A DNA stretch of 64,000 nucleotides from positions 62,001 to 126,000 of the forward strand of contig CAISPO010000037.1 in assembly GCA_903887415.1 (NCBI GenBank). Direction: 5' to 3'. The position numbers and the translations under genes were made by a program. Below, in pieces: positions 18,051 to 47,344 of this stretch. Source of the stretch: an uncultured Bacteroidota bacterium (GTDB lineage Bacteria; Bacteroidota; Bacteroidia; Chitinophagales; Chitinophagaceae). Numbering within the stretch: the first letter of the stretch is position 1; every line of letters begins with the position of its first letter. Under the pieces are notes generated by a model that did no database searches, was not told the DNA's origin, and saw only the letters and a program-made list of their open reading frames with translations.

Positions 18051-18077
18051 TTTGTCATGCTGAGGCACGAAGCATCT
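18051..18077. repeat. Left 27-base inverted repeat flanking the GIY-YIG ORF
   Basis: TTTGTCATGCTGAGGCACG then AAGCATCT. It is the exact reverse complement, over 27 bases, of 18528-18554. A solo copy with two mismatches sits at 5422-5448. Confidence 0.9.
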
Positions 18078-18133
18078 ACACACCAAAAGGGAATTGCTTA
18101 ATTTGTGTCTAAAAGCAGCTTTTCTAGTCAGAT

Positions 18134-18442
18134 ATGAAACCATTAGGTGTTCACAATTATTACGTTTACATTCTTACCAATGTCAACAAAAATGTCTTTT
18201 ATATTGGTGTTACAAATTCTGTAGAAAACAGAGTTGAACAGCACAGGGCCGATGCTAACGGAGAGAAGAAAACCTTTGCAGGCAGATATAATTGCATTTA
18301 CGTGCTTTACTTTGAACGGTTTCAATTTATCAATGATGCCATATCCCGTGAAAAAGAATTGAAAGGTTGGACGAGAGCGAAAAAGGAATCGCTAATAACC
18401 AGCTTTAATCCGAAATGGGAATTTTTAAATCCGCAATGGTGA
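18134..18442 (+). CDS. GIY-YIG nuclease-family protein (URI-like)
   Basis: A 102-residue single-domain protein. The GIY-YIG core appears as YYVYILTN (9-16) and YIGVT (23-27). A conserved arginine (R33 in NRVEQH) and the metal-binding glutamate (E73 in SREKELKGW) are present, so the active site looks intact. Stand-alone proteins of this size are common in Bacteroidota but their role is not established; related modules drive homing endonucleases and UvrC. The ORF lies in a 504-base unit bounded by perfect 27-base inverted repeats, which suggests the gene travels with or acts on that repeat (inference). It lies downstream of uvrB, but proximity to a repair gene may be chance. Confidence 0.9.
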   Translation: MKPLGVHNYYVYILTNVNKNVFYIGVTNSVENRVEQHRADANGEKKTFAGRYNCIYVLYFERFQFINDAISREKELKGWTRAKKESLITSFNPKWEFLNPQW

Positions 18443-18527
18443 CTTACAGAATAGTTGCGGTTTGCAGGTTTCGTGGCTTTTGCACCCATATCCTGGCAAG
18501 AAACGCGAGTACCTTCATCGTGAGTAA

Positions 18528-18554
18528 AGATGCTTCGTGCCTCAGCATGACAAA
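18528..18554. repeat. Right 27-base inverted repeat flanking the GIY-YIG ORF
   Basis: AGATGCTTCGTGCCTCAGCA then TGACAAA. Exact reverse complement of 18051-18077. It begins 86 bases after the GIY-YIG stop codon. Confidence 0.9.
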
Positions 18555-18594
18555 AGCAAGTAAGACCCAAGACAGTGAGCAAGGTGGATGCTAT

Positions 18595-19260
18595 TTATCG
18601 AGTCTTATATCCCGTTTTACAATCAATGATACCGCTCACCTTTTTAATGCCAGATGTGTTTGATACCCACATCTGGTAATTGCCTTTAATTGCATTGCCC
18701 CTACCTGGCTTACTGGATGATTCGGTAATATTAACTACTGCACTATCTACAGAATATTTTTGTCCACCGTTAAAAGATTCTTTGAAAGCGCTTGTTAACT
18801 CACTTATGTCAACGGTATCTCGGGAAGCGCTGCCAGCCATTTGTGAAGTTGGGCCACTCTTTTCTCGATAAGTGCCGATGCCGTTTGCGGGCCCGATAGC
18901 GCCTGCAATTGTCAGGAATATTGGGAAAGCTGGTGAACTGTTAATTGTCAACGTGAATATTGAAGTATTGCCTGTTTTGATGATGTCACAGTAATAGTCC
19001 AGAGTGTCTGAGGGGGTGGGATGGATTTTAACTATTTTCTTCGCAAACCTTCCGGTGCCCGTTCCTTCAGTAGTGATGTCAGGCTTGCCTTGCGCGTCCT
19101 CTGATGGCGCAATCGTTCCGCCTTCAAAGCCCATAATTTGAGAGAAAGTATCGGTATAAGTCGCACCATTATCGGTAACGGTAATAATATTTACTGAAGG
19201 TTTGTTGTTGCAGGATATTATCAACAGGACTCCTAAAAAAGGTAGTAACAGCTTTTTCAT
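18595..19260 (-). CDS. Lipoprotein of unknown function
   Basis: A 221-residue protein with a clear lipoprotein signal (MKKLLLPFLGVLLIISC, cysteine 17). The mature part has beta-type sequence (FTLTINSSPAFPIFLTIAGAIG, YSVDSAVVNITESSSKPGRGNAIKGNYQMWV) and no motif I can name. It is transcribed divergently from the large barrel gene; the promoter-like AGTATATTTAACCCT string at 19275-19291 lies just upstream. Its last codons approach the right inverted repeat of the GIY-YIG unit. Probably a periplasm-facing lipoprotein. Confidence 0.75.
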   Translation of the reverse strand: MKKLLLPFLGVLLIISCNNKPSVNIITVTDNGATYTDTFSQIMGFEGGTIAPSEDAQGKPDITTEGTGTGRFAKKIVKIHPTPSDTLDYYCDIIKTGNTSIFTLTINSSPAFPIFLTIAGAIGPANGIGTYREKSGPTSQMAGSASRDTVDISELTSAFKESFNGGQKYSVDSAVVNITESSSKPGRGNAIKGNYQMWVSNTSGIKKVSGIIDCKTGYKTR

Positions 19261-19274
19261 CTTACGGATTTTTG

Positions 19275-19291
19275 AGGGTTAAATATACTGC
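19275..19291 (-). promoter_or_regulatory. Promoter-like GTATATTTAACCCT motif upstream of the lipoprotein gene
   Basis: On the minus strand, GCAGTATATTTAACCCT lies 15-31 bases before the ATG at 19260. It is nearly identical to the motif at 7808-7824, also ahead of an envelope-protein gene. Confidence 0.35.
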
Positions 19292-19416
19292 TAATGAATG
19301 GCCTGGGCCTGAAAATTAACCTTATTTAACGATTGCCACGGATTTGGATAAAGCGCTATACCCCTATCTTCGCAAGACTTATTTTTTTTCACAGAGAGGA
19401 GTTATTTATATTAAAG

Positions 19417-21849
19417 ATGAAAGGATTTTTTCTGCTCCTTTGCGTGATGTGCTGCACCTGTGCATATGGCCAGGGGGGCGTAAAGATCATAGGGAAAATA
19501 AAAGATGCGACAACACATGCTGCTATTGAGTATGCTACCATAACCGTAGCAGACCGGTCTTCTAAAAAAGTTATCAACGGTGCTTCATCCGACAGTACCG
19601 GCGCCTTTATCGTCACCGGCATTCAGCCCGGGTTGTACACGATCACCGTTGACTTTATTGGTTATAAGAAACAAATTATCGATAGCGTTGCAGTAGGTAA
19701 TAGCAAGGTGTCCTTAAAAACCATTTCACTAACTGGTGCCGGCAAAGTGCTGGACGCTGTTACGGTCACTGCAAGCGGGCCGGTGATTGAGAACAAGCTA
19801 GACAAGATCGTGTACAATGCGGCAAACGATATTACTTCGCAGGGAGGCCTGGCGCTGGATGTGCTGAAGAAAGTGCCGCAAGTGAATGTAGATATAGACG
19901 GCAATGTGGAGCTGCAGGGAAATTCCGATATCCGTTTCCTGATCAATGGAAAGCCGTCAAGTGTATTCGGAAGCAGCATAACCGATGCGCTATCGGCCAT
20001 ACCGGCCAGCCAGATAAAGAGCATAGAGGTAATTACCAGTCCCGGCGCTAAGTATGACGCACAAGGCACAGGCGGCATCATCAACATTATTTTGAAGGAC
20101 AACAAAATGCAGGGCATCAATGGCAGCATTAACCTATCCGGAGGAACGAGGCTGGAGAATGGCTCTGCAAACCTGAACTACCGGCATAACAATTCTGGCG
20201 TAAATGTTTTCTTTAGCGGTAATGCGCAACTTGTATCGCGTACCCCTACTACCCAGGACCGGTCCTCATTCGACTCAGCGGCGAATGCGACTAATCATCT
20301 GATACAAGATGGCTATACCGATCTGACGAGGGATGGATACCAGGCAGGGGCCGGACTTGACTGGAATATTTCCAAACACGACAATATTACGGCTGGGGTG
20401 AGCCTCAACCATTTTGAAAATACCAGCCAAGGAGTTACCAATGTGCAACAGGACACAGCTGGCAGCTCAGCGCCGAGTATCAACAGCAGCCGGTATTCTT
20501 ACAATCATTTTCAAACCAATTCGTTCGATTGGAGCCTTAATTATAAAAAGACGTTTAAGAAGGAAGGCGAAGAGCTTAATATCTTGTATAGCGCCTCGAG
20601 TGGGGCGCCGGTAACTTACTTCCAGCAGGCGAGCACTTATGTTGGAGCAGGTGCACCGTTTACTGGCTCAGCCAGCAATAATCCCGGCACTGATATCAGC
20701 AGTAATATCTCCGTTGATTATACGCTCCCGATAAAAGAACATTTCATCCTGGAAACAGGCGTAAAAACGACGCTGCAAAACATAACGAGTACAGCAGACG
20801 TGACCGCTTTGCAGCCGGCTACGCAAACATATGTATCTAATCCAAACCAGTCGTACAATCTGGACTATGATATGCGGGTGTATGCCGGATATCTTTCTGC
20901 TTCCTTTCCGCTGACCAATTTTTTGAAAGTGAAGGCAGGAGCGCGGTATGAGTATACGGATACGAAAATTGATTTTCCGAACACCAGCATTCCAGCGTAT
21001 GGTACCGTAGTGCCATCGGCAATACTTTCTCACGATTTTAAAAATAACCAGTTCATAAAGTTGTCTTATACACGACGTATAGAGCGGCCGACCTACCGGG
21101 ATGTAAACCCTTTTCTGAATTTCGCTGATCCATATAATATCACTACCGGCAATCCGCTTCTGAAACCTGAGATCGGGAATAACTTCGAGTTCGGGTACAA
21201 TAAATCATTTGGTAAGGGCAGCAATATTTATGCGGCATTGATAGAGCGCATCAATAGCCAGGACCATAAGCAGGTGACTACTCTTCACCAGACTTTTGAT
21301 TCTGTCTATAGCAACGTTTCGGTGACCGATGTTGAGAACATAGGTACAGAATATAATGCAGGCGTGAATGTTTCCGGTTCATGGTCTATCAAGGACAAAC
21401 TTACGCTACGGAGCAATGTATTTTTTATGCACCGGCACAGCGTGGGGCTTTTACCCGGCGATAATGCCGATGGGAACAGGTTCAGGACAAATCTGAATGC
21501 CACCTATCAATTGCCGCATAACCTGGTGACGGAAGCCTTTGGTAATTACAATGCTGCGACAATCAACATTCAGGGCCGTACACCGCAGTCTATTACCTAT
21601 ACGCTGGCATTCAGGAAACAATTCTGGAAGAAGAACGCAAGTGTGGGGGTAACAGCGACAAACTTGTTTAATGAGTACACAAGGCAGGTAGCCACGATAA
21701 CTGCGGCTGACTATAGCTCATATACTATACGTATGCTGCCTTACCGGTCGGTGGGGATCAGTGTTATGTATAAGTTTGGAAAACTGGAATTCAAAAAAGA
21801 CAAAGAAGATGATTCTTATTTGAATAATCCGCCGAGCATGGGGAGTTAG
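19417..21849 (+). CDS. TonB-receptor-like outer-membrane protein (CarboxypepD_reg-like + OMP_b-brl_3)
   Basis: I take the ATG at 19417 (MKGFFLLLCVMCCTCAYGQ, a good signal peptide), giving 810 residues; an upstream in-frame ATG at 19333 would place 28 residues before the signal. Residues about 22-110 form a carboxypeptidase-regulatory-like beta sandwich (IIGKIKDATTHAAIEYATITV, GLYTITVDFIGYKK). A plug-like region follows (VLKKVPQVNVDIDGNVELQG..., IKSIEVITSPGAKYDAQGTGGIINIIL) and then a large C-terminal barrel ending in MYKFGKLEFKKD. This architecture is the OMP_b-brl_3 group of Bacteroidota. It is related to TonB-dependent transporters, but no TonB box is evident. Substrate unknown. Confidence 0.88.
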   Translation: MKGFFLLLCVMCCTCAYGQGGVKIIGKIKDATTHAAIEYATITVADRSSKKVINGASSDSTGAFIVTGIQPGLYTITVDFIGYKKQIIDSVAVGNSKVSLKTISLTGAGKVLDAVTVTASGPVIENKLDKIVYNAANDITSQGGLALDVLKKVPQVNVDIDGNVELQGNSDIRFLINGKPSSVFGSSITDALSAIPASQIKSIEVITSPGAKYDAQGTGGIINIILKDNKMQGINGSINLSGGTRLENGSANLNYRHNNSGVNVFFSGNAQLVSRTPTTQDRSSFDSAANATNHLIQDGYTDLTRDGYQAGAGLDWNISKHDNITAGVSLNHFENTSQGVTNVQQDTAGSSAPSINSSRYSYNHFQTNSFDWSLNYKKTFKKEGEELNILYSASSGAPVTYFQQASTYVGAGAPFTGSASNNPGTDISSNISVDYTLPIKEHFILETGVKTTLQNITSTADVTALQPATQTYVSNPNQSYNLDYDMRVYAGYLSASFPLTNFLKVKAGARYEYTDTKIDFPNTSIPAYGTVVPSAILSHDFKNNQFIKLSYTRRIERPTYRDVNPFLNFADPYNITTGNPLLKPEIGNNFEFGYNKSFGKGSNIYAALIERINSQDHKQVTTLHQTFDSVYSNVSVTDVENIGTEYNAGVNVSGSWSIKDKLTLRSNVFFMHRHSVGLLPGDNADGNRFRTNLNATYQLPHNLVTEAFGNYNAATINIQGRTPQSITYTLAFRKQFWKKNASVGVTATNLFNEYTRQVATITAADYSSYTIRMLPYRSVGISVMYKFGKLEFKKDKEDDSYLNNPPSMGS

Positions 21850-21903
21850 AAGGGAGCCTATCAATGTTTGTCAATAATTTGTTGTTACAAGAAATTACCA
21901 TAC

Positions 21904-21934
21904 TTGTTTTAATAAAAAAACTTAACTAATTTTG
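21904..21934 (+). promoter_or_regulatory. Promoter of the higBA module (TTG-N20-TAATTTTG)
   Basis: TTG at 21904-21906, a 20-base spacer, then TAATTTTG at 21927-21934: a good match to the Bacteroidota consensus, 19 bases before the toxin ATG. An inverted repeat AACTA-N12-TAGTT (21924-21945) overlaps the -7 box and is a plausible operator. Confidence 0.65.
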
Positions 21935-21953
21935 ATAAACTAGTTGCTGTTAA

Positions 21954-22265
21954 ATGGTTATTAAATTCAATAGTGAATACCTGGAGTTGCTTGCAATAGG
22001 CGGAAAAGTGAAAGGTAAACCAAGGTATGATGCTGAAGTAATACTTAAATACCGGAAGACGTTAAAGAAACTGGAAGTGATGCCCAATACAGCCGGATTA
22101 AGGCAATTACGGAGTTTGAATTTTGAGGCATTAAAAGGCGACTTGGTTGGTTTGTATTCAGTAAGAGTAGATTATAGGTATCGCTTACTGTTTACGATAG
22201 AAAAAGACCTGGTAACTATAACTGAAATAATAGTGATAGAAGACTTGAATAACCATTATCAATAA
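21954..22265 (+). CDS. higB: RelE/HigB-family toxin
   Basis: A 103-residue protein with the RelE/ParE-type layout: an N-terminal strand, two helices (AEVILKYRKTLKKLEVM) and a C-terminal sheet containing LVGLYSVRVDYRYRLLFTIE and VTITEIIVIED. The phrase RVDYRYRLLF, with several arginines, fits the RNA-binding face of HigB-like ribosome-dependent mRNases. It precedes an XRE antitoxin by seven bases, and toxin-first order is characteristic of higBA modules. Cytoplasmic. Its own promoter has an inverted repeat over the -7 box, consistent with autorepression. Confidence 0.88.
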   Translation: MVIKFNSEYLELLAIGGKVKGKPRYDAEVILKYRKTLKKLEVMPNTAGLRQLRSLNFEALKGDLVGLYSVRVDYRYRLLFTIEKDLVTITEIIVIEDLNNHYQ

Positions 22266-22272
22266 ATATGTG

Positions 22273-22581
22273 ATGAGAAAAGGGAAAGTATTAAGCGCAA
22301 CCGGAGCAGAAATTAAGGTCAACGTATCTCTTCATCCTGGGGAGGTATTGGCTGAAGAACTGGCGGAGCGAGGTGAGGTGAAGTCTGCTTTTGCAATGAG
22401 AATAGGCATGTATCCATCGCATTTCAGCAATTTACTGAAAGGGAAAAGAGATGTTTCTGCGAGTATCGCTGTCAAATTGGAAGAGGAACTGAAGGTGCCA
22501 GCGGAGTTTTGGCTGGGGCTGCAAATGGATTATGACCTGCTCCATGAAAGGGAGCGGATAAATGGGTTGATGGCGCATTAG
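22273..22581 (+). CDS. higA: HigA-family XRE antitoxin
   Basis: A 102-residue helix-turn-helix antitoxin. HPGEVLAEELAERG opens the HigA-type XRE domain, KSAFAMRIGMYPSHFSNLLKGKRDVS is the helix-turn-helix, and VPAEFWLGLQMDYDL is the characteristic HigA end. The ATG at 22273 is chosen; the GTG directly before it (22270) is possible. It would neutralise the preceding toxin and, with it, repress the operon through the AACTA/TAGTT operator (inference). Confidence 0.9.
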   Translation: MRKGKVLSATGAEIKVNVSLHPGEVLAEELAERGEVKSAFAMRIGMYPSHFSNLLKGKRDVSASIAVKLEEELKVPAEFWLGLQMDYDLLHERERINGLMAH

Positions 22582-22825
22582 TAATATTTAAGCCAACTTT
22601 TCAGGTAATAAAAGCTGTCTTAAGTATAATAAGTGTTTACACTGAACATCTGCAGTCCCTGGGACCCGGATTTTGGAAAAGCTAAGTAAGGTATGTTGGG
22701 TTGTTTTGTATTTATTTTTGACAATATTGTATTTTAACCATTTAAACGAGTCAGTAAAGGAATTGACTACCAATCAGAGGAAACAGACAACCACGTATAT
22801 TACGCAAATTTTAAATTTTGAAAGT

Positions 22826-22933
22826 ATGACTATAAAAGCAAGCGAGTTCATTTACGTCAAAGAAACAATCATAACAACAAAATCCGAAAGGCCAACAAAA
22901 TCCGAAAGCCATTATATATACTGCCGCTCCTAA
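22826..22933 (+). CDS. Possible 35-residue small protein ending at a terminator
   Basis: ATG at 22826 opens MTIKASEFIYVKETIITT..., a Lys/Thr/Glu-rich peptide whose stop lies inside the stem of a rho-independent terminator. Upstream sequence is AT-rich, but no clean promoter could be fixed. It could equally be a non-coding RNA or noise; I do not recognise the peptide. Confidence 0.3.
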   Translation: MTIKASEFIYVKETIITTKSERPTKSESHYIYCRS

Positions 22934-22955
22934 AAAGGGGCGGTTGTTATTTTAT
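22924..22955 (+). terminator. Rho-independent terminator
   Basis: CCGCTCC pairs with GGGGCGG across a TAAAAA loop (one G-T pair), followed by TTGTTATTTTAT. It shows that something is transcribed in 22.6-22.9 kb, either higBA read-through or the small ORF. Confidence 0.6.
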
Positions 22956-23018
22956 CAATTTATATAGCTAAGCTAAAATTGGATTATTGCAACAGGGCTC
23001 AATAACCAATACCTCCCC

Positions 23019-23049
23019 TTTGAATAACCCCTTTATACCCGTAACTTCG
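23019..23049 (+). promoter_or_regulatory. Promoter of prfA (TTTG-N19-TAACTTCG)
   Basis: TTTG at 23019-23022, a 19-base spacer and TAACTTCG at 23042-23049, one base off TAnnTTTG; the ATG follows 27 bases later. Confidence 0.6.
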
Positions 23050-23076
23050 CAGCCTTTAAATTACATTTAATTACAA

Positions 23077-24162
23077 ATGAGTTCCATAGTAGATAAACTG
23101 GAGGCAATTAAGGCGAGGTTTGATGACCTGGGGGTGGCACTCACGAATCCTGAGGTGGTGAATGACAATAAGCGCTTCTCGGCAATAAGCAAGGAATACC
23201 GTAAGCTGGAGAAAATAGTGGATGTTTATAAAACGTACCGGACCTGTGTGGATAGCCTGGATTTTGCAAGGGAAGTGCTGGAAACAGAAAGTGACGAAGA
23301 CCTGCGGTCGCTGGCGAAAGAAGACCTGGAAAAGCTGGAGCTGCAAAAGGAACAACTGGAAACAGATATACGTAACCTGCTGATACCTAAAGACCCGCAG
23401 GACGAGAAAAATGCTATTATAGAAATACGTGCGGGTACCGGTGGCGATGAGGCGAGCATATTTGCGGGAGACCTGCTGAGAATGTACACCAGGTATTGCG
23501 AGCGCAGAGGCTGGAAAGTAGCGTTGGTGTCGGAGACAGAAGGTACGGTGGGGGGCTATAAGGAAATACAATTGGAAGTAGTAGGTGAAGATGTATATGG
23601 TGTGCTGAAGTTTGAGAGCGGGGTACACCGGGTGCAGCGTGTGCCAGCTACCGAGGCTAGCGGCCGGGTGCATACATCGGCAGCTACGGTAGCGGTGATG
23701 CCAGAGGCGGAGGAGATAGACTTCGAGCTGAAAGACAGCGACCTGAAAATGGAAACAGCGCGCAGCGGCGGGGCAGGCGGCCAGAACGTGAACAAAGTAG
23801 AAACAAAAGTGATACTGACACACATACCTACCGGTACTGTGATCACTTGCCAGACGGAGCGCTCGCAGCTAGGCAACCGCGATAAGGCTACTTCTATGAT
23901 GCGGACGAGGCTATATGAGGAGCAGGTGCGCAAACAGGAAGACGAGATAAGCCGCAGGCGAAAAAGCCTTGTGAGCACCGGCGACCGGAGTGCCAAGATC
24001 AGGACGTATAACTATCCGCAGGGGCGAATCACGGACCACCGGATAAATATGACGATCTATGCGCTTGATGACTTTATGAACGGGAATATACAGGATATGC
24101 TGGATGCGCTGCAGTTTGCCGAGAATGCAGAGAAGATGCAGGCGGGGGAAACGGTAATTTAA
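23077..24162 (+). CDS. prfA: Peptide chain release factor 1
   Basis: A 361-residue class I release factor that reads UAA/UAG and triggers peptide release. The peptidyl-transferase motif GGQ appears in [15 protein letters not shown], and the stop-codon-reading tripeptide PAT in [14 protein letters not shown], which marks RF1 rather than RF2 (SPF). The C-terminal [23 protein letters not shown] is also RF1-type. Length and start are normal. Its own promoter lies upstream, and a low-complexity AATTCGACAATT string follows the stop. Confidence 0.97.
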
Positions 24163-24206
24163 TTCGACAATTCGACAATTTGAAAATGAGGTAATTTGAA
24201 TAATGC
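24163..24206. repeat. Low-complexity string after prfA
   Basis: AATTCGACAATTCGACAATTTG followed by degenerate GGTAATTTGAATAATG units starts at the prfA stop. It belongs to the same loose class of simple AT-rich strings as those at 44701-44733 and 35097-35140. Confidence 0.45.
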
Positions 24207-24251
24207 AATTAAGAGCGTGTTACAACGTTATAAACTTACTAATACTTAAAA

Positions 24252-25223
24252 ATGACAAACACATCCTTTGACCTGGTGGATATTATCAGGACGATACAGA
24301 AAAGAAGACGCTTTATTATGCTGATGACTGTTGTGGCAATAGCGCTCGGCGGCGCTTTCTTGCTGGTAAGGCATACCAAGTACAAAGCGGAGGCCAACTT
24401 CTTTGTTAATAACCCGCTTTATGGCGACCGCAGCACACTGTTCCGGTCGCAGGATACGCGTTATGTGGACTACTTTGGCGGAGATGATGATGTGGACAAG
24501 ATAATGGCCTTTGCCAACTCGGATACAGTGAGAGACCGGATCATACGGAATTGTGACTTCGATGTGATCTACAAACCACTAAATATTAATGACCCGAAAG
24601 ACCATGCCAAACTGATGAACATCTTCAGTAAAAATTTCAACCTGAAGCGGACAGAATACAAGGATATATCGCTGACCTATATAGACCGGGACCCGGTAGT
24701 GGCCGCAAATGTTGCGAACATGTCGGTAAAAGTGCTGGAAGAGACCTACCGGCATTATTACAACGCAGTAAAAACAAGCATTTATACCTCCATCAATGAC
24801 AAGGTAACCCAACTAGACAGCGCTATCAATGTACTTACCGATTCATTGGCAACAATGCGTGACCAGTACGGAATATACTCCCTGATAAGCCCGGCGCGCC
24901 GGGATGTTATGGCAGGCGAGATGAAGGGAGGCGGTAAAGGTTATGGCCGGGCGATAGAGCAGATACAGAATGTAGAATCAGTGAAAGACCAGTTAGTGAC
25001 TGACCGCGCACATTATATCTCTGCTTTAAATGAGTTTTCCGCTACGGAGAACAACGCGATGCAGTTTCTGAAGGTGATAACAAGGGCGCTGCCGCCTACA
25101 TCGCCTACGGGTGCCGGACCTGTTATTGTATTGGCTGCAGCAGCTTTTCTTGGTTTGTTTTTCAGCAGCGTATATGTTTTGATGATGGCCTATTTCCGCA
25201 AGCTCAATGCGGTAGTGAGGTAG
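24252..25223 (+). CDS. Wzz-like polysaccharide chain-length/co-polymerase protein
   Basis: A 323-residue inner-membrane protein with two transmembrane segments (about 22-41, FIMLMTVVAIALGGAFLLV; about 290-312, GPVIVLAAAAFLGLFFSSVYVLMMAY) enclosing a periplasmic domain. The start SFDLVDIIRTIQKRR followed by KYKAEANFFVNN is the Wzz (PF02706) N-terminus, and a coiled-coil-like region lies near 185-270. No C-terminal tyrosine kinase domain is fused. It is followed by an O-antigen ligase/polymerase homologue, so the pair probably works on export and length control of a surface polysaccharide (inference). Confidence 0.82.
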   Translation: MTNTSFDLVDIIRTIQKRRRFIMLMTVVAIALGGAFLLVRHTKYKAEANFFVNNPLYGDRSTLFRSQDTRYVDYFGGDDDVDKIMAFANSDTVRDRIIRNCDFDVIYKPLNINDPKDHAKLMNIFSKNFNLKRTEYKDISLTYIDRDPVVAANVANMSVKVLEETYRHYYNAVKTSIYTSINDKVTQLDSAINVLTDSLATMRDQYGIYSLISPARRDVMAGEMKGGGKGYGRAIEQIQNVESVKDQLVTDRAHYISALNEFSATENNAMQFLKVITRALPPTSPTGAGPVIVLAAAAFLGLFFSSVYVLMMAYFRKLNAVVR

Positions 25224-40225: not shown

Positions 40226-41602
40226 TTATTCGCGCGGTTTGTCACTGGCGGTCTTGCCTTCTGGTTTTTCACCCACTTTGGCTTTGGCTTTCCATTCGAG
40301 TGCTTTGGAGTGGTTTCGAGGTACGCCCTGGCCATTTTCGTAGAAGTCGCCGATGGTGCGCATGGCTACTTTGTCGCCTTTCTCGGCGGCCTTCATGATC
40401 CACTCAAAACCTTTCTTATCGTCCTGCATCACGCCCAGGCCGTTGGCATAGAGGTAGCCTACATTGTAGAAGCCTGTAGGGTTTCCTTTCTCGGATGAGC
40501 GCATGGCCCAGGCCATGGCTTTGGTATAATCGCGCTTGGTGGCGTTTTCTTTGTTGGTGTATATGAATCCTATGCCGGCCATTATTCTGTCATCATTTGT
40601 CTTGTCGGCTGTCTGTTCCAGCCATTTCAGCAATGTCTCCATATCTGCGGCGGTGAGGTTGCCGGAGTCATACATATCAAACAGCTCGTCGATCGCGTCA
40701 TTCTCTTTTGCATGGCTTTTTATGAGCAGGTCAGCATCAGTCATGAGCAGATTCATAGCCTTCGAATAATCGTGATCGACACCTACTCCTTCGGCATAAA
40801 ACCCGGCCATAAAAAAGCAGGCGTCACCATCGCCCTGGTCGGCATATTTTTTCATCCATTGCGCTACAACTTTATATTCGGCATCCTTACATTTGCCTTC
40901 CATAGCTATTTCGCCTACGGATGGGAGCGAGCCGGTATCGCCCATATCCCTTGCCTTCATGTACCAGTCCATTGCTTTTTTGCAATCATTGCCAAGCTCG
41001 GGTGAGCGGTAGAAAAAGGCGAGGTCGCTGGCTGCAGTTACATCGCCATTCTCAGCGGCTTTCTGCAGCCATTTGCTGGCGGCTACGGGGTCTTTCGCAA
41101 CGCCATTGCCTTTTGCATAGCATAGCGCCAGCGAGCTCATGGCTTCGGTAATTCCCTTGTCGGCGGCGGCCTGGAAGTTCTTTACGGCCTCCGCCATATC
41201 TTTCAGCACGCCATCGCCTTCTTCATACATCACGCCTATTTCGTTCATGGCTACGCCATCGCCTTTTTTGGCGGCTTTGCGAAACATTGCCAATGCTTTC
41301 ACAGGGTCTTTTTTCCCGATCTTACCTGCCATGTACATAATGCCCAACTGGACCATGGACGGTGCGTGACCTTTGTCGGCAGCTTTTTGCAGCCATGTCT
41401 TTGCCTTAACAAAATCCTGCGGCATTCCCTGCCCATAGCAATAATAAAGCCCCATATGAAACATGGCAGCTGTGTCCCCTTTTGCCGCTTTCGCCTTATC
41501 GTGGGCCACCTGGGTGGCATCAGGCGGCGGGGCTGGGTTTGCTTGCTGTGCGGCGCAAAAGAAGGAGCAAAACAATAAGGCAAAAAGGGTAATGTACTTC
41601 AT
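40226..41602 (-). CDS. Secreted Sel1-like repeat protein
   Basis: A 458-residue protein with a signal peptide (YITLFALLFCSFFCAAQQ) and roughly ten Sel1-type TPR-like helical repeats, e.g. AAMFHMGLYYCYGQGMPQDFVKAKTWLQKAADKG, AMNEIGVMYEEGDGVLKDMAEAVKNFQAAADKG and GFYNVGYLYANGLGVMQDDKKGFEWIMKAAEKG. Sel1 repeats form superhelical scaffolds for protein binding. Part of the middle (about 200-330) is more diverged. The C-terminus is Lys/Glu-rich (KVGEKPEGKTASDKPRE). Periplasmic. Partner unknown. It follows the FMN reductase gene by seven bases, so the two are likely cotranscribed. Confidence 0.85.
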   Translation of the reverse strand: MKYITLFALLFCSFFCAAQQANPAPPPDATQVAHDKAKAAKGDTAAMFHMGLYYCYGQGMPQDFVKAKTWLQKAADKGHAPSMVQLGIMYMAGKIGKKDPVKALAMFRKAAKKGDGVAMNEIGVMYEEGDGVLKDMAEAVKNFQAAADKGITEAMSSLALCYAKGNGVAKDPVAASKWLQKAAENGDVTAASDLAFFYRSPELGNDCKKAMDWYMKARDMGDTGSLPSVGEIAMEGKCKDAEYKVVAQWMKKYADQGDGDACFFMAGFYAEGVGVDHDYSKAMNLLMTDADLLIKSHAKENDAIDELFDMYDSGNLTAADMETLLKWLEQTADKTNDDRIMAGIGFIYTNKENATKRDYTKAMAWAMRSSEKGNPTGFYNVGYLYANGLGVMQDDKKGFEWIMKAAEKGDKVAMRTIGDFYENGQGVPRNHSKALEWKAKAKVGEKPEGKTASDKPRE

Positions 41603-41609
41603 AATAGTT

Positions 41610-42191
41610 TTAGTTCTTTTGAATATTAATGTCGCGGATAAAGGTATCCATAATATTTTTTATCGCCTGTATGGTCTCCGTGTCGGTGATCTCACAGTTT
41701 GTGTTCATTTTTGAGCGGATGAAAGAAAGGAGCAGCGTTGACTCTTCCAATACCCGGGCGGAGAGTGCGGTGAGCGTAAGTTTCAATGAGGCATGTGCTT
41801 TGTCGCCGCCTGTAGCTGCTGTGATGAGTGCTACCGGTTTATTTACCAGCTCACCAGTAGAGACTGTCCAGTCGAGCGCGTTCTTTAATGAGCCCGGTAC
41901 ACCAAATGCATATTCCGGAGAGCTGATAAGGATGCCATCAGCCTCGCTCAGCAGCTTACGAAACTCAACAACCTCCGGGGCGGGGTCATCGCTGCCGTCA
42001 AAGTGGGGCAATGAGCCAAGGCCTTCATAAATAATAAAGGCAACCTCGCCGGCTACCAAGGTGGCGGCAGTGGTGATCACTGCGCTGTTTGACGAATTGG
42101 GGCGCAGGCTGCCGGAGATGGCCAGTATGCTGATCTTGCTTCGTAGTTGCTGATTGTCTTTCACGGTGGGGAACTTGCAGGCAAGATACAC
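41610..42191 (-). CDS. NAD(P)H-dependent FMN reductase family protein
   Basis: A 193-residue flavodoxin-fold protein. The FMN phosphate-binding loop is SGSLRPNSSN (after ISILAI), and LISSPEYAFGVPGSLKNALDWTVS is the conserved flavin/NADPH site of this family (PF03358). Members reduce FMN, quinones, azo dyes or chromate with NAD(P)H. About 22 residues precede the usual family start, so a GTG at 42164 is a possible true start. First gene of a two-gene unit with the Sel1 protein. Confidence 0.88.
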   Translation of the reverse strand: MYLACKFPTVKDNQQLRSKISILAISGSLRPNSSNSAVITTAATLVAGEVAFIIYEGLGSLPHFDGSDDPAPEVVEFRKLLSEADGILISSPEYAFGVPGSLKNALDWTVSTGELVNKPVALITAATGGDKAHASLKLTLTALSARVLEESTLLLSFIRSKMNTNCEITDTETIQAIKNIMDTFIRDINIQKN

Positions 42192-42280
42192 TCACCAGGA
42201 GCATATAACAAAATTGCGGGAATATTTTTAATGCGCTTTTTTTTATTCACATCCAATGACTATTTATTCACACTTTATAA

Positions 42281-42308
42281 TTGTACGATTAAAAAAATGT
42301 TAGGTTTG
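42281..42308 (+). promoter_or_regulatory. Putative promoter TTG-N17-TAGGTTTG
   Basis: TTG at 42281-42283 and TAGGTTTG at 42301-42308, with a slightly short 17-base spacer, 24 bases before the ATG at 42333. Confidence 0.5.
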
Positions 42309-42332
42309 TGCGGATTCTAAAAAAAATTGTCT

Positions 42333-43178
42333 ATGCAGTATTTGTCTGAGGCATTTAAACAGTCAGGTTTCTTTAACAGCGAATTTGATAAAATATTTGC
42401 CGAGCAGCCTTTTGATAAGCCAAACATCCTGGCATATATCAACGTATGCACAACAGCAGTGCTGGAAGCAGCGCAGCGCAAATACCCGCAGCACGGACTT
42501 AAATTTATCAACCCTATATTTATAGTTAACCGGGAGATATATCCCGTGCCGGGATTGCCGGGAGATGAGCGTGTAATGAAGCTTGCCTATGAGTCTTTCG
42601 GCCTGGTGAATTCGCGTACCATCGTGCCACTATCGCTGAAGGTGCTTGACAACAGGATGTTTGGCCTCGTGCTTTATTTCAATGACAGCTACAAAGGGCA
42701 GGAATACATGACCTTCCGGACCTTTGACCTGGGCAATACCACCAACAACAATGACGATAAAATAAAGGAAGGGATACTCGTTGACGAGGTGTCGCACCTG
42801 GAAATGGATATCAATACGGTTACCGGTGATTTTCATAAGATAGCCGCGGAACTGGAACTGGTGACCACAAAAGAAAAAATGAAGCTGTACAAGACCTTCA
42901 TGCTGTATAAGAACATGGCGAGGCTTTCAGAGCGGGGTATGTTCTTCTCATTTGTGAACAATTACAACCAGGCGTTTTCGTTCTTTAATTGTTTGTTTAC
43001 CCTTGTTTCTGAAAAGCCATTTACGGAAGAGGAACTGCTGGATTTTGCGCTTATCATCGATAATATGTCTGCCCCGATAGCGGGTTTCTACAGCGACCCT
43101 AAGGGCGTGAGTGTGGAGACGATGGCAAAGCGCAATGCGATCAAATCTGTGCTGGAAAGCAGTTTTAAGCAGGTGTAG
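42333..43178 (+). CDS. Cytoplasmic protein of unknown function
   Basis: A 281-residue protein from the ATG at 42333; a TTG six bases upstream is possible. There is no signal peptide or membrane segment. The protein has mixed alpha/beta composition, with recognisable but unassigned stretches such as FINPIFIVNREIYPVPGLPGDERVMKLAYE, RTIVPLSLKVLDNRMFGLVLYFND and GILVDEVSHLEMDINTVTGDF. The C-terminal third is helical (EKMKLYKTFMLYKNMARLSERGMFFSF). I do not recognise the family. It has its own promoter and appears monocistronic. Confidence 0.7.
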   Translation: MQYLSEAFKQSGFFNSEFDKIFAEQPFDKPNILAYINVCTTAVLEAAQRKYPQHGLKFINPIFIVNREIYPVPGLPGDERVMKLAYESFGLVNSRTIVPLSLKVLDNRMFGLVLYFNDSYKGQEYMTFRTFDLGNTTNNNDDKIKEGILVDEVSHLEMDINTVTGDFHKIAAELELVTTKEKMKLYKTFMLYKNMARLSERGMFFSFVNNYNQAFSFFNCLFTLVSEKPFTEEELLDFALIIDNMSAPIAGFYSDPKGVSVETMAKRNAIKSVLESSFKQV

Positions 43179-43258
43179 GTCGGTCGTTTGTATTTCTTAA
43201 GCCGGTTTGGGATTTAACATCTGGCATCCCCATTAACTTTCATCCTAAACCTCAGCAA

Positions 43259-43286
43259 TCATGGTTCGGCAGGGCTTACCATGACA
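43259..43286. repeat. 28-base dispersed repeat, copy 2 (TCATGG...CCATGACA)
   Basis: TCATGGTTCGGCAGGGCTT then ACCATGACA; matches 10475-10502 at 25 of 28 positions. TCATGG and CCATGA form inverted ends. Confidence 0.7.
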
Positions 43287-43330
43287 CTACTCCATTCATC
43301 TTTTTCAGAAAAGTTAGCTTAATTATTTCT

Positions 43331-43338
43331 TAGTTTTG
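43331..43338 (+). promoter_or_regulatory. Putative -7 box TAGTTTTG before the phosphatase gene
   Basis: TAGTTTTG ends four bases before the ATG at 43343, so a transcript starting about seven bases after it would be leaderless. The situation resembles ispG. No clean -33 element. Confidence 0.4.
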
Positions 43339-43342
43339 CCGT

Positions 43343-43798
43343 ATGCGCATACTGATGGTTTGCCTTGGTAATATTTGCCGCTCGCCGATAGCGGAGGGGG
43401 TGATGAGGCATAAGGTAAAAGAAAACGGGCTGGACTGGATCGTGGATTCGGCCGGTACAGAATCTTATCATGTAGGTGAAGCACCGCACCGTTTCTCGCA
43501 AAAGATATGTTTGAAGCATGGCATAGACATCTCGCATCAGCGGGCTGTGAAACTTACCGCAGATAGCTTTGCAGGATATGATAAGATATACGCTATGGCA
43601 ACCGATGTGTATGAAGAGATAAAATACTTAGGGGGCAAGCAGGCGGATATGACCAAAGTGGAGCTTTTTCTGAATGATCTGCATCCTGGTAAAAATGAGT
43701 CGGTGCCCGATCCGTACTATGGCGAAGAAGGTGGGTTTCTACAGGTGTATGAGCTTATTGACAAAGGGTGTGAAGCAATAATAAAGAATAACAAATAG
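43343..43798 (+). CDS. Low-molecular-weight protein tyrosine phosphatase
   Basis: A 151-residue enzyme. The P-loop C-x5-R-S is C7-LGNIC-R13-S in MVCLGNICRSPIAEG, and the general-acid aspartate is D123 in VPDPYYG; DSAGTESYHVGEAPH is also typical. It removes phosphate from tyrosine residues (or arsenate-related substrates in relatives) in the cytoplasm. In many bacteria such enzymes control capsule tyrosine kinases, but the Wzz-like protein here is 18 kb away and lacks a kinase domain. A hairpin repeat separates it from hisS, 56 bases downstream. Confidence 0.95.
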   Translation: MRILMVCLGNICRSPIAEGVMRHKVKENGLDWIVDSAGTESYHVGEAPHRFSQKICLKHGIDISHQRAVKLTADSFAGYDKIYAMATDVYEEIKYLGGKQADMTKVELFLNDLHPGKNESVPDPYYGEEGGFLQVYELIDKGCEAIIKNNK

Positions 43799-43812
43799 CA
43801 GATGAATAGTGC

Positions 43813-43836
43813 AGAGACGCAAAACCTTGCGTCTCT
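43813..43836. repeat. REP-like hairpin, arm AGAGACGCAA
   Basis: 10-bp stem AGAGACGCAA/TTGCGTCTCT, loop AACC, between the phosphatase and hisS. Same arms as 15924-15951 but with a different loop. Confidence 0.8.
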
Positions 43837-43854
43837 ACGAAATGAAAAACAGAT

Positions 43855-45267
43855 ATGTCCAAACCATCCATACCACAAGGAACACGTGATTTTTCACCGG
43901 CAGAAGTGCGCCGGCGGCAGTATATATTTAATACGCTTCGAACGATATTTGAATTGTATGGCGCACAGCCGTTGGAGACACCTTCGATGGAGAACCTGAC
44001 CACGCTCATGGGCAAGTATGGCGAAGAAGGGGACAGGCTGATCTTTAAGATACTGAATAATGGCCTGCATGAAAAGAAAGATGCGGATAAGGAGAAACTG
44101 AACAGTGAATGGAACAACATAGTAAGCAGGCCATACTCTACGCCGGTGGTTACTGAGCGAGCGCTACGCTATGATCTTACGATACCTTTTGCACGCTATG
44201 TAGTGATGCACCAGAATGATATAGCATTTCCATTCCGCCGGTACCAGATGCAGCCGGTGTGGCGCGCCGACAGGCCGCAGAAGGGCCGCTATCGCGAGTT
44301 CTGGCAATGCGATGTGGATATGGTGGGCAGTACATCGCTCATCAATGAAGCAGAACTGTTGTGTATTTATCAAACTGCGTTTCAGAAATTGAAGGTGCCT
44401 GTGACGATAAAAGTGAACAGCCGCAAGCTGCTTGCCGCATTGGCTGACCTGTGCGGTATGCCGGAGAAGATGATGGACATAACCATAGCCCTTGATAAAC
44501 TGGATAAGATAGGCTGGGTAGGCGTAGCAAATGAACTGAAAGAGCGCGGCATAACTGATGATGGCATCTGGCAGATAGAAAGAGTAATAAATGTGAAGGG
44601 AACGAATGATGAGAAACTGGTCGCCTATGCAGACATTATGCAACACAGCGCAATGGGCATGGAGGGGATCAATGAGCTGGGCAAAACGCTTGCTTACTAT
44701 GGGAATTTGGAATTTGGAATTAGTAATTTGGATAGCGAGAGAGAAAAAAATATAGTAGTTGATATTAGCCTTGCGCGTGGGTTGAATTATTATACCGGTG
44801 TGATCGTAGAAGTAGTATGCAGCAGTGAGGCCGTGAAGATGGGCAGTATAGGCGGCGGCGGCAGGTATGATGACCTGACCGGATTATTTGGGCTGAAAGG
44901 TGTGTCGGGGGTTGGGGTGTCGTTTGGGATAGACCGTATCTATGATGTAATGGAAGAGCTGGATGTTTTCCCCAAACAACTGGCGGAGGGCACGAAGGCT
45001 ATGCTCGTGAACTTTGGCGGGGAGAATGAAACCTATGCACTACAGATATTGCAGCAATTAAGAGCCGCGAACATAGCTGCGGAGATATATCCCGATGCTG
45101 CAAAGTTTGATAAGCAAATGAAGTATGCCAACAGGCGCGGCATAGCCTATGTACTGCTGCCGGGTGATGAAGAGCGGCAAAAGAATATGGTGAGTGTGAA
45201 GAATTTTGAGACCGGGGAGCAGAAGATGATGAGTGTGGGGGAATGTATTACTTTGTTGAAAAGTTAG
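43855..45267 (+). CDS. hisS: Histidyl-tRNA synthetase
   Basis: A 470-residue class II synthetase. Motif 1 region: IPQGTRDFSPAEVRRRQYIF; motif 2: RRYQMQPVWRADRPQKGRYREFWQCDVD; histidine-specific motif: SLARGLNYYTGVIVEV; motif 3: GSIGGGGRYDDLTGLFG and GVGVSFGIDRIYDV. The C-terminal anticodon-binding domain (about 375-470) is present. Just before the histidine motif, the codons for NLEFGISNLDSE (44701-44740) come from a GGAATTTGG-type simple string resembling intergenic DNA, an apparent in-frame insertion. Its 3' end overlaps the convergent COG2509 gene by 20 bases. Confidence 0.97.
   Translation: MSKPSIPQGTRDFSPAEVRRRQYIFNTLRTIFELYGAQPLETPSMENLTTLMGKYGEEGDRLIFKILNNGLHEKKDADKEKLNSEWNNIVSRPYSTPVVTERALRYDLTIPFARYVVMHQNDIAFPFRRYQMQPVWRADRPQKGRYREFWQCDVDMVGSTSLINEAELLCIYQTAFQKLKVPVTIKVNSRKLLAALADLCGMPEKMMDITIALDKLDKIGWVGVANELKERGITDDGIWQIERVINVKGTNDEKLVAYADIMQHSAMGMEGINELGKTLAYYGNLEFGISNLDSEREKNIVVDISLARGLNYYTGVIVEVVCSSEAVKMGSIGGGGRYDDLTGLFGLKGVSGVGVSFGIDRIYDVMEELDVFPKQLAEGTKAMLVNFGGENETYALQILQQLRAANIAAEIYPDAAKFDKQMKYANRRGIAYVLLPGDEERQKNMVSVKNFETGEQKMMSVGECITLLKS
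44701..44733 (+). repeat. In-frame GGAATTTGG-type string inside hisS
   Basis: GGGAATTTGGAATTTGGAAT followed by TAGTAATTTGGA. The same kind of simple string occurs between genes at 34809-34819, 35097-35140 and 37669-37710. In hisS it is read as GNLEFGISNLD with the frame kept. Confidence 0.6.
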
Positions 45268-46810
45268 CCACTGCCGCTTCCGCACACCGTTCCCCATCAA
45301 TAGCAGCAGAAACAATACCTCCTGCATAACCCGCTCCTTCGGCACAAGGGTACAGGCCCTTGATCTGTATATGCTGCAGGGTGTCTTTATCACGTGGGAT
45401 GCGCACTGGTGAGCTGGTGCGGGATTCAGTGGCGACAAGGACTGCTTCATTTGTAAAATAGCCTTTCATTTTTTTACCAAAGTCAACTACTGCTTTTTTC
45501 AGGGCTGCGTTCACTTCTGTGGGCAATACTTCGTTGATAGCAGCGCTGTGTATGCCGGGCAGGTAAGAGCAGGAGGGCAGGGTAGTGGATACTTTGTTGC
45601 TGGTAAAGTCGGCCATGCGCTGGGCAGGGGCCACGAGGTTGCCACCACCTATGGCAAATGCCTTTTGCTCTACCATTTGCTGGTAGTGCATAGCTGCGAG
45701 CGGCCCGGTAAAGTTACAGGCGGCAAAGTCCCGCTCATCAACGGCTACTACAGTGCCGGAGTTGGCAAAAGGGTTGTTGCGTTTTGAGGGCGACCAGCCG
45801 TTTACTACGATCTCTCCGGGTGCCGTCGCTGCTGGCGCGATGATACCGCCGGGGCACATACAGAAGGAGAACACACCTCTTCCGTTCTCCTGGACTACCA
45901 GGGAATAACTGGCAGGCGGCAGATATGGGTCGCGGACACTGCAGTGATACTGCGACTGGTCTATGATCAGTTGGGGGTGCTCAATGCGAACACCGAGGGC
46001 AAATGGCTTGCACTCTATGAGGATGTTTTTATGGTGCAGCAAAGTGAATATATCGCGGGCTGAATGGCCGGTGGCGAGAATTATGGAGGAGCAATCTATC
46101 GTATCGCTAGATGCGGTTTTGATGCCGGTTATCTTATCTCCGTTGAGGAGTATGTCGGTTAATTTGGTTTCAAATAATACCTCGCCGCCACAGTCCATTA
46201 TCTGCTGTCGCATGGCGGTGATTATCTGCGGCAGTTTGTTTGTGCCTATGTGTGGGTGTGCATCGAAAAGGATATTTGCCTCTGCGCCGAAGTGGTGGAA
46301 CAGCTGCAGGATGCGCTGCACATTGCCGCGCTTGGTGGAGCGGGTGTAGAGCTTGCCATCGCTGTAAGTACCTGCGCCACCTTCGCCGAAACAATAGTTT
46401 GATTCCGGGTTTACAATGCCTTCTTTGTTCATGGCTGCAAGGTCGCGGCGGCGGCTGCGCACGTCTTTGCCGCGTTCCAGTATTATGGGTTTGTATCCAA
46501 GCGTTATGAGGCGTAGCGCAGCGAATAAACCTGCCGGGCCTGCGCCCACAATAACTATGTGAGGGGCATTGGACACATTCTGTAACTGCGGATCGAAGGC
46601 AGGGGCTTCAACGGGGATTTCATCGATAAAGACCTGCGCCTGGATGATGATACGTGCCTGCCGGGAACGGGCATCGATTGAGCGTTTCTGGATGGTGTAT
46701 CCGGAGATGCGTTGCGTGGTGACACCACATTCTGAAGCGATATGCTTTTTTAGTTGCGTTTCGTCTGCGGCATCCGCGGGAGCGAGGGAAACTGAAATGT
46801 TCTTTATCAT
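45248..46810 (-). CDS. COG2509-type FAD-dependent dehydrogenase
   Basis: A 520-residue flavoprotein. The dinucleotide-binding motif is IVGAGPAGLFAALRLITLGYKPIILERG (about 81-107). SNYCFGEGGAGTYSDGKLYTR is the hallmark of the uncharacterised COG2509 group, and CAEGAGYAGGIVSAAIDGERCAEA closes the FAD site. The N-terminal ~75 residues form the ferredoxin-like domain usual in this group (VTTQRISGYTIQKRSIDARSRQ). Cytoplasmic oxidoreductase; substrate unknown. It is convergent and overlapping with hisS, and its upstream side abuts the left inverted repeat of the GxxExxY unit. Confidence 0.9.
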   Translation of the reverse strand: MIKNISVSLAPADAADETQLKKHIASECGVTTQRISGYTIQKRSIDARSRQARIIIQAQVFIDEIPVEAPAFDPQLQNVSNAPHIVIVGAGPAGLFAALRLITLGYKPIILERGKDVRSRRRDLAAMNKEGIVNPESNYCFGEGGAGTYSDGKLYTRSTKRGNVQRILQLFHHFGAEANILFDAHPHIGTNKLPQIITAMRQQIMDCGGEVLFETKLTDILLNGDKITGIKTASSDTIDCSSIILATGHSARDIFTLLHHKNILIECKPFALGVRIEHPQLIIDQSQYHCSVRDPYLPPASYSLVVQENGRGVFSFCMCPGGIIAPAATAPGEIVVNGWSPSKRNNPFANSGTVVAVDERDFAACNFTGPLAAMHYQQMVEQKAFAIGGGNLVAPAQRMADFTSNKVSTTLPSCSYLPGIHSAAINEVLPTEVNAALKKAVVDFGKKMKGYFTNEAVLVATESRTSSPVRIPRDKDTLQHIQIKGLYPCAEGAGYAGGIVSAAIDGERCAEAAVANFSTK

Positions 46811-46814
46811 CCGT

Positions 46815-46849
46815 CTGAACCTCAGATTAGCCGAGATTAACTGATTTAC
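46815..46849. repeat. Left 35-base inverted repeat of the GxxExxY unit
   Basis: CTGAACCTCAGATTAGC then CGAGATTAACTGATTTAC. It matches the reverse complement of 47310-47344 at 33 of 35 positions. It contains the stop codon of the GxxExxY gene (46846-46848) and begins five bases upstream of the COG2509 start. Confidence 0.9.
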
Positions 46850-47262
46850 CGTTGATTTGATGATTGGATATTGATTACTTCGGGCTTGTATTTTGTATTA
46901 TAAAGCCTCTTTACTTCAAGACTTTTTGAGCCGAAATTGATTAATAACCCTACTTCAAGATTAAATGCTTCAAGGTAGTTTAACGCTTGCGCAAGATGTA
47001 CGTCTTCTAATTTTGATACTGCTTTTAATTCGACACAGATAACGCCGCAGACCAGAAAATCCACTCTTCTTAATCCTATTTGCACGCCTTTATAATATAC
47101 AGGCATTTCTACTTCTCTTGCAAAATGTATTTTGCGAATATCGAATTCTAACTCTAAAGCCCTTTGATATAATACCTCCTGAAACCCCGCTCCCATTTCC
47201 TTATGAACTTCAAGAGCAGCGGCTATAGTAGTACCAGTTATTTCCGAGTGTTTATATTCCAT
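46846..47262 (-). CDS. GxxExxY family protein (predicted PD-(D/E)xK-like)
   Basis: A 138-residue protein. The name-giving motif is G26-FQ-E29-VL-Y32 in MGAGFQEVLYQRAL. A candidate nuclease core follows: D68 in RRVDFLV and E78-L-K80 in ICVELKAV, matching the D...(D/E)xK arrangement. The family is widespread in Bacteroidota and has no proven function; relationship to restriction-like nucleases is a prediction from the motif. The gene and its promoter region are enclosed by 35-base inverted repeats, and its stop codon lies inside one of them, which implies that gene and repeats form one unit of about 530 bases. Confidence 0.9.
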   Translation of the reverse strand: MEYKHSEITGTTIAAALEVHKEMGAGFQEVLYQRALELEFDIRKIHFAREVEMPVYYKGVQIGLRRVDFLVCGVICVELKAVSKLEDVHLAQALNYLEAFNLEVGLLINFGSKSLEVKRLYNTKYKPEVINIQSSNQR

Positions 47263-47309
47263 CCCAGTTGATGTTTTTATTACTAAATAAAGACAGAAAC
47301 AGAAAAACA

Positions 47310-47344
47310 GTAAATCAGTTAATCTCGATTAATCTGAGGTTCAG
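47310..47344. repeat. Right 35-base inverted repeat of the GxxExxY unit
   Basis: GTAAATCAGTTAATCTCG then ATTAATCTGAGGTTCAG. Reverse complement of 46815-46849 except for two adjacent bases. It includes the stop codon of dsbD (47341-47343), so the unit fits exactly between the ends of its neighbours. Confidence 0.9.

Follow-up and report, generated by a model that had tools for sequence, protein, structure and literature searches.

Two compact units of about 0.5 kb, each consisting of one nuclease open reading frame (ORF) between inverted short repeats, were found in a 64,000-nucleotide stretch of an uncultured Chitinophagaceae genome; this whole stretch is referred to here as the window (C37:62001-126000, contig CAISPO010000037.1, in a source genome of 4.73 Mb and 74 contigs). 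In the GIY-YIG unit, the arms at 18051-18077 (plus strand) and 18528-18554 (minus strand) are 27 nt long, 100% complementary and 450 nt apart, and they enclose a single ORF of 102 aa at 18134-18442 on the plus strand. The left arm is a TGTC-tagged palindrome, TTTGTCATGCTGAGGCACGAAGCATCT, with a stem of 5 bp and a loop of 9 nt, and the right arm is its exact inverted copy. In the GxxExxY unit, the arms at 46815-46853 and 47306-47344 are 39 nt long, 92% complementary and 452 nt apart, and the only ORF is one of 138 aa on the minus strand (46846-47262), a PD-(D/E)xK-type protein. This second unit is tightly packed: the 3' end of its ORF overlaps an arm, an 8-nt-period stretch overlaps the right arm, and neighboring ORFs start at 46810 on one side and end at 47341 on the other.

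Both family assignments rest on a domain match together with conserved motif residues. The GIY-YIG ORF matches PF01541 (E 1.5e-15, Pfam search), and Y12, Y23, G25, R33, and E73, which we take to be the catalytic residues, are invariant among 22 aligned sequences. The GxxExxY ORF matches PF13366 PDDEXK_3 and TIGR04256 GxxExxY (E 4.9e-36 and 1.4e-37; the TIGR04256 match is above the cut-off), with E28, D67, E77, K79, and Q91 invariant among 23 aligned sequences and the D..ExK..Q motif kept. A search of solved structures returned UPF0213 proteins for the GIY-YIG protein and no match for the GxxExxY protein. The original prediction, made from the bare sequence of the window, of two units with a lone nuclease ORF between inverted repeats was thereby confirmed in its arms, ORFs, and families. 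Both repeats also occur elsewhere in the source genome, with five further dispersed copies of the GIY-unit repeat and seven of the GxxExxY-unit repeat (at most 3 mismatches). One copy of the GIY-unit repeat stands alone in the window, at 5422-5446 on the minus strand (2 mismatches), with no adjoining nuclease ORF. A run of 21 C residues next to it (5477-5497), which may be a variable stretch or an artifact of assembly, lies where the ORFs at 3340-5313 (plus strand) and 5547-6965 (minus strand) converge with their 3' ends.

Pairing of the arms was compared with chance in the window and in a 400-kb sample of the source genome, composed of 20 stretches of 20 kb hand-chosen on large contigs away from the family matches then known. 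Under strict settings (ungapped inverted score of at least 18, spacer of 250 to about 1000), these 464 kb held just two inverted pairs, and both were the reported units. At the same settings, a pair was present at 7 of the 14 source-genome matches of three families (5 GIY-YIG, 4 GxxExxY, and 5 S23, a four-helix-bundle family), the window's two included. A second test, used throughout what follows, scored the local alignment of the upstream flank with the reverse-complemented downstream flank, with a threshold of at least 16. Among 105 other sample ORFs of 80-200 aa, a single one had arms reaching this score, whether flanks of 300, 350, or 400 nt were used. The threshold was reached by all four GxxExxY genes of the source genome (one just at 16.0 and accompanied by a stronger direct repeat), by 4/5 S23/IVP genes, and by 2/5 GIY-YIG matches, the remaining three being two ORFs, 472 and 661 aa in length, and a fragment of 62 aa. 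Chance pairing was rejected on the strict-pair and control-ORF counts. The enrichment of nuclease ORFs between inverted repeats, proposed as a check of the idea, was found both in this 464-kb part of the 4.73-Mb genome and at the loci of relatives described next; the idea was not refuted.

The flank test was extended to genomes of the same order, each family being represented by at most 30 of its best-scoring loci and no genome by more than one per family. To these was added DUF559, a third nuclease family, without a match in the source genome; its free-standing set comprised 31 loci (11 from a fetched list and 20 more hand-picked from listed places). Four rows with short flanks (L032, L084, L137, and L147) were left out, and the window's own GIY-YIG gene (L091) was kept out of the order counts. 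Inverted arms scoring at least 16 were present at 19/29 GxxExxY, 19/29 S23, 12/29 GIY-YIG, and 21/31 free-standing DUF559 loci, and at 14 of 19 loci where DUF559 forms part of a longer open frame; the ParE toxin control gave 1/28. Direct repeats reached the same score at 6/29 GxxExxY, 1/29 S23, 20/29 GIY-YIG, 15/31 free-standing DUF559, 3/19 in-frame DUF559, and 3/28 ParE loci. The high direct scores at GIY-YIG and DUF559 loci indicate that several copies in both orientations are often present there. When flanks were paired across loci as a control, scores of at least 16 were obtained in 45 (GxxExxY), 95 (S23), 20 (GIY-YIG), and 56 (ParE) of 600 draws each; the GxxExxY and S23 cross-locus pairs reach 16 because arms of one family are alike in different genomes and orthologs are among the loci. 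The single architecture for unrelated nuclease families that had been proposed holds for GIY-YIG, GxxExxY, and DUF559, and it extends to S23, which is not known as a nuclease.

In the order, GxxExxY was present in 138/198 sampled genomes, S23/four-helix genes in 123/149, and DUF559 in 60/149. An all-against-all BLAST for element ends showed in one case, read by eye, that homology between the S23 units L063 and L064 stops near the outer ends of the arms. GxxExxY genes were also found in eight plasmid records. The inverted score passed in three of these (Gemmatirosa, inside a larger inverted duplication, Bacteroides, and Bernardetia) and the direct score also in three (Gemmatirosa, a Fusobacteria bacterium, and Prevotella). 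Shorter, array-like arms, below the threshold, flank the genes of Treponema and of Sphingomonas, the latter lying between fabD and fabG. The viral contig collection yielded no GxxExxY relative.

A strict search for tagged palindromes next to GIY-YIG genes (stem of at least 6) found copies at only 5/29 GIY-YIG order loci, and the pattern was then relaxed to GTCAT-xyz...zyx-ATC, with a 3-bp variable stem and permuted tags as controls. Such tagged palindromes lie within 500 nt of the gene at 17/29 GIY-YIG order loci (control tags, 0-4 per set) and at none of 34 GxxExxY, 35 S23, and 30 ParE loci. The same scan was applied in named genomes to the best 80 of 575 confirmed GIY-YIG relatives, which include Bacteroidota, Elusimicrobia, Spirochaetes, Alpha-, Beta-, Gamma-, and Deltaproteobacteria, Clostridia, Bifidobacterium, Fibrobacter, Cloacimonadota, Ignavibacteria, Gracilibacteria, Buchananbacteria, and Falkowbacteria. 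At 65 of these 80 loci, from many phyla, tagged palindromes (mostly CGTC or TGTC) lie within 500 nt of the GIY-YIG ORF, and their density falls from 3.52/kb at 0-250 nt to 0.08/kb at 2-5 kb; ten control tags averaged 0.011-0.025/kb. A tagged palindrome was present within 250 nt on at least one side of the GIY-YIG ORF at 62/80 loci and on both sides at 36/80, compared with 24 and 0, respectively, of 345 other ORFs more than 600 nt away at the same loci. The tag points outward in 38/49 nearest upstream and 34/54 nearest downstream copies. The base preceding GTC, left free in the search, is C or T in 146 of the 161 copies near GIY-YIG ORFs; stems are 8-9 bp long in 104 of the 161, and 89 of these have 4-5-nt loops. 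Arm similarity covaries with protein similarity across 60 loci (Mantel r 0.28, reached by 0/2000 permutations, kinship being ignored). At the level of whole genomes, and again ignoring kinship, the median number of matches to the repeat pattern was 6 in the 46 genomes with a strong GIY-YIG match (E below 1e-10, our own cut) and 1 in the other 103 of the 149 examined.

Some GIY-YIG loci depart from this pattern or elaborate on it. The source genome has another small GIY-YIG gene (L002), which lies between copies of a perfect, untagged palindrome, TCCCGATAGCTATCGGGA, at 1433-1450 and 1901-1918 of its locus; one locus recorded twice (L120 and L257) has identical 43-nt inverted arms, GGTTTCCGGTTTCCGTTTCC..., also lacking the C/TGTC tag. 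In a Ruminococcaceae genome (L201), two types of tagged palindrome alternate at about 118-nt spacing on either side of the GIY-YIG ORF. Paired GIY-YIG matches starting about 0.35-0.45 kb apart were seen at L260, G133:C1:70057-70763, and G080:C63:75536-76190, which suggests tandem amplification of units.

The other families have repeat types of their own. Periodic arrays were present within 200 nt at 30/35 S23 loci, with a period of 7 in 43 of 50 arrays; the letters of the array unit vary widely between genomes and the period stays constant. Array density was 3.63/kb near S23 genes vs 0.41/kb at 400-1500 nt. GxxExxY loci had arrays in 13/34 cases, with a period of 8-10 in 18 of 22 arrays and a density of 1.63/kb near the gene vs 0.37/kb at 400-1500 nt; typical arms repeat CACAGAG or GCAAAG several times over. 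Of the ParE control loci 5/30 had arrays, none of period 7, at densities of 0.43 and 0.16/kb. DUF559 arms are C-rich palindromes, such as CCCCTCTCC...GGAGAGGGG. Taken together, these data indicate that the repeat type tracks the protein family, from GIY-YIG and GxxExxY to S23 and DUF559. Arrays of period 7 also occur alone: the 400-kb sample, which holds no S23 match, contains 11 of them, compared with 0 after shuffling in 3-nt blocks, and several share letters with the arms of the S23 unit L028. In the window, one solo array of the type seen around S23/four-helix genes lies at 44703-44732. A second 7-nt-period array, at 4226-4255, falls inside an open frame that by eye is ispG-like (3340-5313), and it seems to be read in frame as part of it. 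Another GxxExxY unit of the source genome (L008, 1402-1941) lies between ORFs that by eye are MoeA-like and MoaA-like.

At the 19 loci mentioned above, the DUF559 domain is part of a longer open frame. Pfam was run on eight of these frames and identified leucyl-tRNA synthetase in three, an I/L/M/V-class synthetase, UvrA, cobalamin-dependent methionine synthase, a DEAD helicase, and an Eco57I-type methylase; we read the I/L/M/V-class enzyme as IleS, and the helicase is RecQ-like by eye. Arms scoring at least 16 were found in 6/8 of these host genes, namely in LeuS (L295 and L306) and, at L310, L300, L323, and L318, in the IleS-like synthetase, MetH, the RecQ-like helicase, and the restriction-modification enzyme, the misses being UvrA (L297, 11.0) and a third LeuS (L301, 8.0). 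The frames are naturally open, and the arms are read through in frame.

The history of one site was followed by searching 17 genomes of two genera with 3 kb around the GxxExxY unit of genome G084. The site was matched in 16 and could be read across in 10; the other seven comprise one without a match and six with a single flank, flanks on separate contigs, or a masked gap. GxxExxY units occupy the site in G084, G091, G157, and G153. Within a unit, the arms match each other at 28/29 (G084), 44/46 (G091), and 64/72 (G157) positions, with local scores of 26.5-52.0, while arms compared between these three species score only 8.0-13.5, although the flanks are 78-90% identical. G153 has arms similar to the G091 ones (score 20.0), which gives three arm types in four species. 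Arms that match within a unit yet differ between species suggest replacement of whole units or arm-to-arm conversion. In G075, the site carries a 127-aa DUF559 ORF between inverted CCCCCTAGCCCCCTTT repeats. Inspection by eye showed inverted array pairs with no ORF in G097 and G132, a solo array in G064, and bare junctions, with no visible repeat, in G137 (106 nt) and G027 (83 nt). Since the arms differ in the three compared species and the two bare sites have no repeat, repeats and gene seem to arrive together.

Several described systems resemble these units in part. Closest in plan are the REPtrons, in which a RAYT (TnpA-REP) gene is, according to the passages concerned, always flanked by two inverted repetitive extragenic palindromes (REPs) (Nunvar et al. 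2010, PMC2817692); here too there is one gene, two inverted flanking repeats, and dispersal of the repeats, which in REPtrons carry a GTAG tag and occur solo, paired, or clustered (PMC2817692, PMC3733652). The RAYT protein, however, is an HUH tyrosine transposase, whereas the genes described here encode GIY-YIG proteins, two PD-(D/E)xK-type families, and a four-helix bundle. Pfam matches in the window units are limited to PF01541 and PF13366, with no transposase gene and in particular no HUH tyrosine transposase (Y1_Tnp), and the GTAG tag is absent from the window arms, those of the GIY-YIG unit carrying TGTC and those of the GxxExxY unit having no such tag. A second class, the CGTC REPs, was described from bacteria including Bacteroidetes, apparently without a dedicated transposase in the part of that account that deals with them (Di Nocera et al. 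2013, PMC3733652). Repeats near GIY-YIG ORFs share with it the CGTC/TGTC tag and the AT at the stem base, and the window's GIY-YIG arms have both. The CGTC REPs have stems of 8-9 bp and loops of 4-5 nt, lengths that 89 of the 161 copies near GIY-YIG ORFs share, unlike the arms in the window with their 5-bp stem and 9-nt loop.

In Legionella pneumophila, 11 GIY-YIG genes with repeated flanks, as well as DUF559 segments, are reported as recombination hotspots, the GIY-YIG genes being termed homing endonuclease or mobile element (PMC12308824, 2025). The repetition of the flanking intergenic regions is a likeness to our loci, and by analogy these hotspots would lend independent support to a cassette reading; on the other hand, the main text of that paper does not use 'inverted repeat' or 'palindrom', and its relevant passages describe no cognate repeat type. 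The intervening sequences (IVSs) of 23S rRNA with S23p are similar in having about 0.4-0.5 kb, one small ORF, and terminal inverted repeats (per passages of PMC4990558). They differ in that the units here lie outside rRNA, mostly encode nucleases, and have arms that are members of dispersed repeat families; the window units sit between protein ORFs and encode nucleases in place of S23p, so that the IVS precedent covers S23 only. The word stems 'inverted' and 'palindrom' are absent from the available text of a 2006 survey of GIY-YIG nucleases (PMC1564403), as are 'nuclease' and 'transposase' from that of the 2025 RepRanger paper (PMC12306157). Papers containing the word GxxExxY name the protein in passing, in passages silent on repeats. 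Apart from PMC12308824, we found no paper tying GIY-YIG, GxxExxY, or DUF559 to such repeats in literature searches confined to open-licence PMC.

What can be observed directly, namely the build of the units and its enrichment, the link of repeat type to protein family, the solo copies, the invariant active-site residues, and the presence, exchange, and absence of units at one site, we read, with somewhat more confidence than doubt, as the signature of REPtron-like cassettes, in which a small gene lies between inverted short repeats and its protein would recognize, and probably spread, the cognate repeat. GIY-YIG would bind the hairpin with its C/TGTC tag, GxxExxY the 8-10-nt-period array, DUF559 the C-rich palindrome, and an S23 pentamer the 7-nt-period array. 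The protein would cut at or beside its repeat, and repair or replication after the cut would copy repeats, and occasionally a complete unit with both arms, to other positions. The non-autonomous progeny would then be the solo repeats and the inverted pairs that lack an ORF. A Xanthomonas S23-type protein is described as a homopentamer (in passages of PMC4990558), and two solved S23 relatives have five chains each; we conjecture that the pentamer reads four to five heptads per arm.

A number of observations weigh against this reading. Direct copies are commoner than inverted ones at GIY-YIG loci (20/29 vs 12/29) and nearly as frequent at free-standing DUF559 loci (15/31 vs 21/31); 10/29 GxxExxY and 10/29 S23 order loci fall below the inverted threshold; and just 3/8 plasmid GxxExxY genes pass it, with 3/8 passing also as direct repeats. 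Periodic arrays were found at only 13/34 GxxExxY loci, compared with 5/30 for ParE. At least five matches to the REP pattern occur in 21/103 genomes without a strong GIY-YIG match, and neither the Mantel test nor the genome-level comparison takes phylogeny into account. The polarity of occupied and bare states at the syntenic site is unrooted, and no target-site duplication was identified there, the flanks being too diverged to reveal one. We know of no nuclease activity for S23. Finally, it is from association, arm-protein covariation, dispersed copies, and occupied versus bare sites that we infer recognition, cutting, and mobility. The general strategy put forward in the original prediction, a small nuclease that maintains or spreads its flanking repeat, stands as regards the link between repeat type and protein family, with its active part a probable reading of the same lines of evidence.

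One alternative is that the repeats are spread by other machinery and that the small nuclease genes are parasites, hitch-hiking or homing into inverted repeats as safe, recurrent landing sites. The 21/103 repeat-rich genomes without a strong GIY-YIG match would fit this, as would the replacement of one nuclease family by another at the syntenic site and the homing endonuclease/mobile element label given to the Legionella genes in the passages cited (PMC12308824). Such parasites would not be expected to show a repeat type that tracks the protein family or arm sequences that covary with the protein, nor would pre-existing landing sites readily account for arms that differ in three compared species at a shared site when two bare sites are, by eye, free of repeats; we consider this explanation improbable, though the most credible of the alternatives.

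Less probable still is an explanation at the RNA level, in which, as in 23S rRNA IVSs, the arms are kept as a long stem removed by RNase III, the ORF is harmless in transcripts, and mobility is incidental. The size and terminal inverted repeats do match those given for the 428-nt Coxiella IVS, with its 28-bp stem and S23 ORF (PMC4990558, in part), and the Sphingomonas unit between fabD and fabG is placed as this would predict; yet the solo copies, the constant array period despite varying letters, and the in-frame DUF559 cassettes in protein genes are left unexplained. The arms might also insulate solitary small genes as bidirectional terminators or boundary elements. Arms of the CGTC type are indeed hairpins near both ends of the ORF, but those of GxxExxY and S23 are periodic arrays and not evident hairpins, DUF559 arms are read through in frame, and tagged palindromes within 250 nt on both sides were found for 0/345 other ORFs in the GIY-YIG loci; we give this last alternative very little credence.

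The cassette reading suggests a widespread, little-noticed class of tiny mobile elements. A broader version of it, on which we are evenly divided, holds that many dispersed bacterial repeats (CGTC REPs, CACAGAG/GCAAAG-type arrays, heptad arrays, and CCCCTCTCC palindromes) may be cognate sites of dedicated small proteins in two-armed cassettes, a general class of minimal, nuclease-driven, transposase-free elements that would have arisen at least four times, with GIY-YIG as the long-missing enzyme of the CGTC REPs and the S23 homopentamer reading four to five heptads per arm. Which enzyme, if any, mobilizes CGTC REPs was left open in the relevant part of the 2013 account (PMC3733652), and GIY-YIG is now a concrete candidate, its genes having such repeats as neighbors in Bacteroidota, in Alphaproteobacteria, and as far afield as bacteria of candidate phyla. 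The same logic proposes partners for three other repeat types, as well as roles for GxxExxY, S23/four-helix, and DUF559 genes, and the in-frame cassettes in aminoacyl-tRNA synthetases would illustrate how such elements can enter essential genes.

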